Assembly: GCA_026388415.1 (NCBI GenBank) | Contig: JAPLJV010000044.1 | Location: forward strand, 62,001-126,000 | Direction: 5' to 3' | DNA length: 64,000 bases | Source of the DNA: Deltaproteobacteria bacterium | GTDB taxonomy: Bacteria > Desulfobacterota > Syntrophia > Syntrophales > JACQWR01 | Part shown: piece by piece, positions 16,212 to 19,444 of the stretch | Numbering within the stretch: the stretch's first letter is position 1 | Layout of the letters: every line of letters starts with the position of its first letter | Notes under the pieces: model-generated | What the model was told of the DNA's origin: nothing | Databases searched by the model: none | Seen by the model: only the letters and a program-made list of their open reading frames with translations | Translations under genes and position numbers: made by a program

Positions 16212-17246
16212 ATGTCACGAGCTGACAGATATCTGAAGGCATGCCGGCAGGAGAGCGTAGACTGTACGCCGGTGTGGATAATGAGACAGGCCGGCCGATA
16301 CTTGGAAGAGTATCGTGCGGTGCGAGCCAGGCACAGTTTTATCGAGGTCTGCAAGACGCCGGAATTGGTCGTGGAAATAACAATGCAGCCAGTCGGGCGC
16401 TTTGAACTTGATGCCGCCATAATCTTTGCCGATATCCTGCTGCCCCTGGAAAAAATGGGGATCGATTTCGAATTCACCAAAGACGACGGCCCGCAGATAA
16501 ACAATCCTGTCCGGTCTCATGCCGAGGTTGCCAAGATGCGGGCCATCAATCCCATAGAAGAAATGTCATACCTGATGGACGCCATCCGGATGGTGAAGCG
16601 CGAACTCAACGGCCTCGAGCCGCTGATTGGTTTTTCCGGCGCACCTTTTACGCTGGCGAGCTATATCACCGAGGGGAGCAGCTCCCGTAACTACGTCTTT
16701 ACCAAGACGATGATGTACTCGGAACCTGATACATGGCATCTGCTCATGGAAAAGCTCACGGACATGGTGATCGTCTATCTGAACGACCAGATCAAGGCCG
16801 GCGTCCAGGCCGTCCAGATTTTTGACAGTTGGGTGGGGTGTCTTTCTCCGGCTGATTACCGGGAATTCGTCCTGCCCTATCAGAAGCGGCTTTTTGCCTC
16901 CCTGGACAAGTCCGTGCCGCACATCCATTTCGCCTTCGGCGCTTCGCACCTGCTCACGATGGTCCAGGAAGCCGGCGGTGACGTGATTGGGCTGGATTGG
17001 CGCATGGATATTGATGCGGCCTGGCAGGCGCTGCACCATGAACCCGGTGTGCAGGGAAACCTGGACCCGGTGGCACTTTATGGCTCCCGGGATTACATTA
17101 AACGGCGGGTGCAGGATATCACCGCCAGGGCCGACAATCGCAACGGCCACATCTTCAACCTCGGGCACGGCATCCTGCCTACCGCACCCACGGACAACGT
17201 GAAATACATGATTGATCTTGTCCACGAGTTGAGCGCCCGAAAATGA
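16212..17246 (+). CDS. hemE: Uroporphyrinogen decarboxylase
   Basis: This 344-residue protein is a full-length HemE, which removes the four acetate carboxyls of uroporphyrinogen III to give coproporphyrinogen III. The signature PVWIMRQAGRYL occurs near residue 20, and the second conserved region GFSGAPFTLASY is near 140. It is cytoplasmic and needs no cofactor. The stop overlaps the hemH start (ATGA), so translation is coupled. The run hemE-hemH-hemY would carry out late haem synthesis, but no coproporphyrinogen oxidase is in the window and hemH is damaged. Confidence 0.97.
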   Translation: MSRADRYLKACRQESVDCTPVWIMRQAGRYLEEYRAVRARHSFIEVCKTPELVVEITMQPVGRFELDAAIIFADILLPLEKMGIDFEFTKDDGPQINNPVRSHAEVAKMRAINPIEEMSYLMDAIRMVKRELNGLEPLIGFSGAPFTLASYITEGSSSRNYVFTKTMMYSEPDTWHLLMEKLTDMVIVYLNDQIKAGVQAVQIFDSWVGCLSPADYREFVLPYQKRLFASLDKSVPHIHFAFGASHLLTMVQEAGGDVIGLDWRMDIDAAWQALHHEPGVQGNLDPVALYGSRDYIKRRVQDITARADNRNGHIFNLGHGILPTAPTDNVKYMIDLVHELSARK

Positions 17247-17964
17247 CGACGGGCATAATCATGGTAACTCTCGGTGGGCCGCGCTCTCAGATGGAGATCC
17301 CGGAGTTCATCAGACGTTTTATCGGCCGGGACCTCCCCGCGCCGGCGATGAAGGCCGTTATCGAACGCTACGAGCTTATCGGCGGGTTTTCTCCCCTGAC
17401 CAGCATCACCGCGGAACAGGCGCAGAAATTGAATGCAATGCTGGGTAATGACTATCTTTGCCTGCCCGCCTTTCGCTATTCCCCGCCCTTCATAGAGGAT
17501 GTCATGGAGAGCGTGACGGCAGCCGGCGCGGCGCGGATTCTTTTTTTACTCCTTTCACCTTTTTACGCGAGCGTCACCACAGGCAATTACATAAACACGG
17601 CGCCGGCGAGCCGTACCAGCAGCAAATCGAAGCAACGGTGGCCACCGTCGTTGCACAAGCCGGTATCACCAATCATGCCCTCGGCTGGCAGAGCATTCCG
17701 AATAACGTCCCGGAAGCCTGGATAACCCCAACGGTGGAAGAACAGATTGACGCCATCGCTAAAGCCGGTTTTACGAGCATTATCCAGATCCCGATCGGGT
17801 TTACAGCCGATCACATTGAGACGCTCTACGATATTGACATCACGCACCGGCAGTACGCGCTGGCCAGGGGTCTTTCCTTTCGGCGCCTGTCTTCTCTCAA
17901 TGCCGGTGATACATTTGTGCAAGCCTTGCAAGAGATAGTGCACAGGTCTGTAAATCTCCCCTAA
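17243..17964 (+). pseudogene. hemH: Ferrochelatase with internal deletion and frameshift
   Basis: Two reading frames together encode a ferrochelatase-like protein. The first (17243 to about 17598) gives the N-terminal half through SPFYASVTTGNYIN. The second resumes at about 17605 with GEPYQQQIEATV and runs through GWQSIPNN to GFTADHIETLYD. In the family these two parts are separated by about 60-75 residues that include the SAHSLP segment with the catalytic histidine; here that segment is absent and the frame shifts by one. The conserved glutamate (ADHIETLYD) is kept. Either the gene is inactive or the assembly dropped about 200 bases. The ATGA overlap with hemE and the position before hemY confirm its identity. 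Confidence 0.85.
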
Positions 17965-18033
17965 CCCCTCTTTGTCAAAGAGGGGAATCAATGGATACTC
18001 CCCCTTTAGCAAAGGGGGATTGAGGGGGATTTG
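17951..18033. repeat. C/G-run palindromic intergenic repeat, copy B
   Basis: This is the same design as the repeat at 5682-5760: AATCTCCCCTAACCCCTC, then TTTGTCAAAGAGGGG, then CCCCCTTTAGCAAAGGGGG, ending GAGGGGGATTTGAGG. It fills the space between the damaged hemH and hemY. Folded, it gives two stacked GC-rich hairpins. Confidence 0.75.
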
Positions 18034-18049
18034 AGGTTAGGGATTATAG

Positions 18050-19444
18050 ATGAACAGGATTGCTATCATCGGCGGCGGAATTTCCGCCCTGGCCTGTGCC
18101 GTAAATTTGAAGGAGCAGGGATTAGACTTCACGCTCTTTGAAAAGGAAAACTATGCCGGCGGCAAGCTTTACACGGAAAAATTCGGCGATCTGACGATAG
18201 AAGGCGGACCGGACAGTTATCTTCCCGAAAAATTCTGGTCCGTGCAACTTATTAAAAAAGTTGGCCTGGCCGCGAAGATGCTCTGTTCCAACGACGAGTC
18301 CAAGGGTACCTTCATCTATTCCGGGGGGCGACTCCACGCCCTGCCCGAGGGCGTCATGCTCATGGTGCCGACAATGATCATGCCGCTTGCCAAGTCCAGC
18401 CTTATCTCTTGGCCGGGCAAAATAAGGATGGGGATGGAGTTGTTTGTCCCACCCCGCACAGATATGAAAGACGAAAGCCTGGCAGAGTTCGTGACGCGAC
18501 GTCTGGGCAGGGAATGCCTGGAAAAAATAGCCGAACCGCTGGTAGCCGGCATCCACACCTCCAATCCCGACAATATGAGCGTACATGCCGCTTTTCCGCG
18601 TTTCGTAGATATGGAGAGCAAGTCCGGCAGCCTGATCAAGGGCATGATCGCGGTCATGAAAAAGATGCCGCCGCAAAACCCGGCCGGGTCAACATCCACT
18701 CCCAAGATGACGTACTTCATGTCGCTGCAGGAAGGCATGCAGTCATTGGCAGACGCATGCATGTCCTATATTGGCGCCGAACGGGTCAAGACGGGAATGC
18801 CCGTGGTATCGGTTGCAAGGCATGCTCAAGCCTACCGCCTGGTATTCGATGATGCCTCCACGGCTGATTTTGATGCGGTCGTACTGGCCACACCATCCTA
18901 CATTACGAGTGATATCCTGAAATTGGCGGATGAAAAGCTGTGTGCCATGCTGGCGGCAATCGAGTGGTCGGCATCGGCTACGGTTTCCATCGCTTTCCGG
19001 AAAGAAGATATGAAAAAGCCCCTGCCCGGCTTCGGATTCATAGTCCCCCGCGTGGAGAACCGAAGGATTAACGCCTGCACCTGGAGTTCCGTGAAATGGT
19101 CGCACCGGGCGCCCGCCGATACCGTTCTCATCAGATGTTTTGTAGGCGGCGGACATCACGAAGAACTCGTCGTCTGCGACGACAACGAACTGCTCGGCAT
19201 AATTCGGGAAGAATTAGCCGTAATGATCGGCATCAAGGCGGAACCGTCATTCTTCAAGGTTTACAGGTGGTTCAAGGGGATGCCCAAATATACCGTCGGC
19301 CACCTGGGACGTATTGCGGCCATTGACGAAAAACTCAAGGAGTATCCGGGGCTATTTCTGATTGGCTGCAGCTACCGCGGGATCGGGATGGGGGACTGCG
19401 TGAAAAGCGGTTTTGACGCCGCCGCAGCCATTGGTGTGGGGTGA
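18050..19444 (+). CDS. hemY: Protoporphyrinogen oxidase (FAD-dependent)
   Basis: This 464-residue flavoprotein has an N-terminal dinucleotide-binding motif IGGGISALACAVNL followed by the acidic strand end FTLFEKE. The EGGPDSYL segment is typical of HemY-type oxidases, and the C-terminal FAD-contact region reads LIGCSYRGIGMGDCVKSG. It oxidises protoporphyrinogen IX (or coproporphyrinogen III) in haem synthesis, probably at the inner membrane. It lies downstream of hemE and the disrupted hemH. Its integrity implies the pathway was in use until recently, or that the hemH lesion is an artefact. The FAD binding fold is certain; the exact porphyrin substrate is less so. Confidence 0.92.
   Translation: MNRIAIIGGGISALACAVNLKEQGLDFTLFEKENYAGGKLYTEKFGDLTIEGGPDSYLPEKFWSVQLIKKVGLAAKMLCSNDESKGTFIYSGGRLHALPEGVMLMVPTMIMPLAKSSLISWPGKIRMGMELFVPPRTDMKDESLAEFVTRRLGRECLEKIAEPLVAGIHTSNPDNMSVHAAFPRFVDMESKSGSLIKGMIAVMKKMPPQNPAGSTSTPKMTYFMSLQEGMQSLADACMSYIGAERVKTGMPVVSVARHAQAYRLVFDDASTADFDAVVLATPSYITSDILKLADEKLCAMLAAIEWSASATVSIAFRKEDMKKPLPGFGFIVPRVENRRINACTWSSVKWSHRAPADTVLIRCFVGGGHHEELVVCDDNELLGIIREELAVMIGIKAEPSFFKVYRWFKGMPKYTVGHLGRIAAIDEKLKEYPGLFLIGCSYRGIGMGDCVKSGFDAAAAIGVG

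Follow-up and report, generated by a model that had tools for sequence, protein, structure and literature searches.

The locus raises a simple question: is the ferrochelatase gene hemH broken in this bacterium, or just in its genome assembly? We analysed a window of 64,000 nucleotides (G000:C44:62001-126000). The genome, G000 below, is a 2.79-Mb draft in 66 contigs, with 98.1% completeness and 2.6% contamination. Three genes, hemE, hemH (17243-17964) and hemY, follow one another on the forward strand. The features are as follows.

16212-17246, + strand: intact hemE (uroporphyrinogen decarboxylase), overlapping the start codon of hemH (TIGR01464 430 bits, cut-off 303, full profile; PF01208 444 bits).
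17243-17593, + strand: 5' part of hemH, ending at the NYI codon; the frame stays open until an early stop at 17725, giving 160 aa (PF00762 positions 2-144).
17594-17607, + strand: deletion junction, 14 bases, AACACGGCGCCGGC, in place of 180 in intact orthologues; 166 missing, with a frame change (orthologue comparison).
17608-17964, + strand: 3' part of hemH, in the other frame; the TADHIETLYD segment is retained (PF00762 positions 201-315, 105 bits).
17964-18035, no strand: pair of C/G-rich palindromes in the hemH-hemY gap (fold z = -3.6).
18050-19444, + strand: intact hemY, a CgoX/PPOX-type porphyrinogen oxidase (TIGR00562 292 bits, cut-off 98; nearest solved structure 3i6d, 276 bits).

The original prediction was that hemH lacks its catalytic-histidine segment and changes frame at about 17593-17605, between intact hemE and hemY genes. 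All of this held. Positions 145-200 of the PF00762 profile are missing and the two halves sit in different frames, with the change placed at 17594-17607. Read from its ATG, the 5' open reading frame (17243-17725) yields a product that stops after 160 residues. The codons for NYI and EPY are 180 bases apart in all seven intact orthologues of the order, versus 14 in the window. The deficit is thus 166 bases, or 3n+1, which explains the frame change. An internal segment is indeed missing, but the size first suggested (~200 bp, or 60-75 residues) was slightly high, as about 55 residues are gone. The GC-rich nature of the junction, also predicted, was verified. For both hemE and hemY, the match to the family profile spans the full length.

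In every relative, the segment missing here includes WY.EPLFIESW and FSAHSLP or motifs close to them. The SAHSLP segment is the catalytic-histidine motif of ferrochelatases. It is absent from hemH of the window and present in 7 of 7 orthologues of the order, with SAHSIP in L005. We found no relocated or second copy of the segment anywhere in the 64-kb window. Against TIGR00109 (cut-off 124.6 bits) the two halves, which lie in different frames, reach 61 and 92 bits, compared with 203 for an intact relative. The assembled hemH is probably a null allele, encoding a protein with no predicted ferrochelatase activity.

Two further observations concern the surroundings of hemH. In one relative, G013, hemH is followed ~3.6 kb downstream by an additional, partial copy of itself (G013:C35; L023:15902-16357). 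This copy, of 309 bases, is 91.6% identical to G013's own hemH and includes exactly the middle segment absent from the window gene. Separately, hemH and hemY overlap in relatives G013 and L005; in the window, the palindrome pair separates them. C/G-rich palindromes of CCCCCTTTNNNAAAGGGGG type recur between genes, in the window at 17964-18035 and 39118 and in L022 at 9440, 10537 and 16132.

Neither half of hemH contains a stop codon. Compared with orthologues from family f13, dN/dS is 0.20-0.28 for the 5' half (0.14-0.31 between pairs of intact genes) and 0.09-0.18 for the 3' half (0.13-0.18 between intact pairs). Identity to the intact f13 orthologues is 67-72% for the 5' part and 69-76% for the 3' part. 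In every comparison hemH is less conserved than hemE and hemY, and this is also true among intact genes. With normal constraint and no stops, the lesion is either very young or absent from the organism. Since both halves have normal dN/dS, we rejected an old pseudogene under relaxed selection.

By all signs, G000 needs haem. A cytochrome c7-type protein with three haems is encoded on contig C56, and ResB and a cytochrome c assembly protein follow immediately after it. No other protein with at least two haem-binding motifs was found in the ~366 kb sampled. Hence, haem demand may be modest. Even so, the genome codes for a tri-haem cytochrome together with the proteins that assemble it and the hemH halves are constrained, which makes a long-established loss unlikely.

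Could haem be made in another way? The original prediction had allowed for a different route of iron insertion, and for a second hemH elsewhere. Neither is supported by the assembly. A whole-genome search with PF00762 found no second ferrochelatase in the G000 assembly, just the two halves. The alternative sirohaem route is dismantled. G000 has no AhbC match above the 650-bit cut-off and no SUMT (CobA/CysG C-terminal domain, TIGR01469). A relative of the AhbA/B-type protein of G035 was found neither in the haem cluster nor in the ~380 kb of G000 sampled. HemQ/ChdC (PF06778) is absent from G000, and HemN matches were all far below cut-off in the 11 genomes tested. AhbD, by contrast with SUMT, precorrin-2 dehydrogenase and AhbC, is intact (G000:C13:66327-67379, 557.6 bits, cut-off 500) and kept in the order's usual hemA-hemC-hemD-hemB-ahbD cluster.

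The same contig records how the sirohaem branch was lost. At its start, HemD (L022:10619-11572, G000:C13) carries CobA residues 1-20, fused in frame. Relative to G001, the only other genome of the family in the set, this scar is a net in-frame deletion of 681 bases. Precorrin-2 dehydrogenase (CysG N-terminal type) survives as a decayed remnant of 57 residues, 54% identical (L022:14857-15024, G000:C13). The remnant sits between prmA and ccsB; the full gene is present in G001 and G131. The cobA-hemD scar and the dehydrogenase remnant are relics of a sirohaem branch that disappeared through deletion. Hence, gene loss by internal deletion struck this pathway earlier.

We surveyed 155 genomes across the order. 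Eight carry hemH, and the same eight carry hemY. In seven, hemH is intact and followed by hemY; G000 is the eighth and has the sole broken copy. In this set, G000 alone represents its genus. AhbC occurs in none of the eight hemH carriers versus 116 of the 147 genomes without hemH (Fisher p = 9e-6, uncorrected, including for relatedness and incomplete genomes). AhbD is found in seven of the eight carriers, one copy being partial, and the exception, G142, is 85% complete. Among the 41 genomes first examined, all have AhbD-profile matches and 34 score above cut-off. The sirohaem route (AhbA-D), with AhbC in 116 of 155 genomes, is the order's normal way to haem.

Even between species of one f13 genus, hemEHY and AhbC exclude each other and AhbD is constant. 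The upstream haem module looks to have been exchanged repeatedly within the order while AhbD stayed, with close relatives seemingly having swapped one supply module for the other. Comparing G000 with f13, identity is 82-85% for hemE and 73-78% for hemY, versus 66-70% for AhbD. Because hemE and hemY are closer to f13 than AhbD is, transfer between families is possible.

These observations suggest a pathway. HemE would produce coproporphyrinogen III, HemY would oxidise it and HemH would insert iron. Hence hemE-hemH-hemY would form a coproporphyrin branch, replacing SUMT and AhbA-C as the supplier of coprohaem in this lineage. Coprohaem from HemH would then pass to AhbD, the retained radical-SAM enzyme, for conversion to haem b. 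As AhbC, SUMT, HemQ and HemN are missing and AhbD is intact, hemE-hemH-hemY should be the branch feeding AhbD. By gene content, it is apparently the sole coprohaem source in G000. A check for a coproporphyrin-dependent route had been proposed. Such a route is probably present, with AhbD in place of HemQ. However, it would be the hemE-hemH-hemY cluster itself and, being built on the broken hemH, offers no bypass.

The closest solved structures to HemH (in the intact relatives) and to HemY (in the window) are Bacillus-type proteins of the coproporphyrin pathway. Judged by similarity, HemH and HemY are probably specific for coproporphyrin-type substrates. The lack of above-cut-off HemN in 11 genomes is an indirect sign that the substrate is coproporphyrin and not protoporphyrin. 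A point against lies in the N-terminal motif: at its YG, HemH of an intact relative differs from the Bacillus protein (VTLGAP versus MAYGTP). The E-H-Y gene order is that of Bacillus.

The arrangement resembles several known systems. As in the coproporphyrin route of Firmicutes and Actinobacteria (hemE/hemY/hemH with HemQ/ChdC), hemE and hemY adjoin hemH in G000. Unlike that route, there is no HemQ, AhbD is the sole candidate for the last step and hemH is broken. With the sirohaem route G000 shares AhbD in its usual gene cluster, but SUMT, precorrin-2 dehydrogenase and AhbC are lost or reduced to remnants. In some organisms AhbD can act after coproporphyrin ferrochelatase, instead of HemQ (PMC7242693), and ahbD occurs either with hemY/hemH/hemQ or with ahbA/B/C (PMC10548856). 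Hence, a combination of hemEHY and AhbD is already known from reviews. This hybrid is matched by hemEHY and AhbD without AhbC in G000 and its hemH-carrying relatives. The arrangement here differs from the hybrid as described in that the supply modules look swapped between close relatives in this order, and in that the hemH step is disabled in G000.

We return to whether the deletion is real. On balance, we lean towards a 166-base deletion that at least a fraction of the sampled population carries and that is very young or not fixed. This is favoured because internal deletions occurred earlier in the pathway and, among the window's other scanned genes with domains, none shows a comparable break. 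The lesion resembles an ordinary, recent breakage of a gene more than the product of a new mechanism.

A sizeable minority of our confidence goes to an assembly fault, with hemH intact in the organism and 166 bases lost by the assembler or in the binning consensus. Everything that needs HemH has been kept: hemE, hemY, AhbD, the tri-haem cytochrome and its assembly genes. The halves of hemH show no relaxed constraint, the genome is a draft of 66 contigs, and an assembly error would yield an identical sequence. However, no other scanned gene in the surrounding 64 kb is broken, and the window holds no second copy of the segment to account for a mis-join. Short-read assemblers also seldom lose 166 unique bases without reads supporting the join. 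We therefore place an assembly fault second to a young or polymorphic deletion, and sequencing reads would separate the two.

It is improbable that the deletion is fixed, hemH is dead and the family obtains its coprohaem or haem from partners or through an unrecognised iron chelatase, with AhbD completing the pathway. In G001 (L059, G001:C22) AhbD and CobA-HemD are intact and AhbC, hemH and hemY are all missing; the usual site of AhbC lies within an unbroken contig and does not hold the gene. Neither genome of the family in the set has AhbC or a functional ferrochelatase, but each retains AhbD, and this lends some weight to a fixed loss. However, G001 is just 92% complete and, with hemE and hemY intact and hemH constrained, any dependence in G000 cannot be old. 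A fixed loss is disfavoured because there is no visible source of coprohaem, yet AhbD, the tri-haem cytochrome and the cytochrome c assembly genes are kept. Least credible is that the sirohaem route makes haem and renders hemH dispensable: AhbD is intact and the route is usual in the order, but we rejected it as a bypass, since AhbC and SUMT are absent from an assembly of 98% completeness, cobA is a 20-residue remnant fused to HemD and the dehydrogenase is a decayed fragment.

Taken alone, a ferrochelatase gene broken in a single draft genome matters little. The more useful pattern is that, within one order, the supplier of coprohaem alternates, being either the sirohaem branch or hemEHY, and AhbD is constant. 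G000 bears the deletion scars of the sirohaem branch that it abandoned. Because of such switching, anaerobes offer a way to test the proposed AhbD-for-HemQ route. Should the deletion in hemH turn out to be fixed, it would indicate dependence on the coprohaem or haem of partner organisms.
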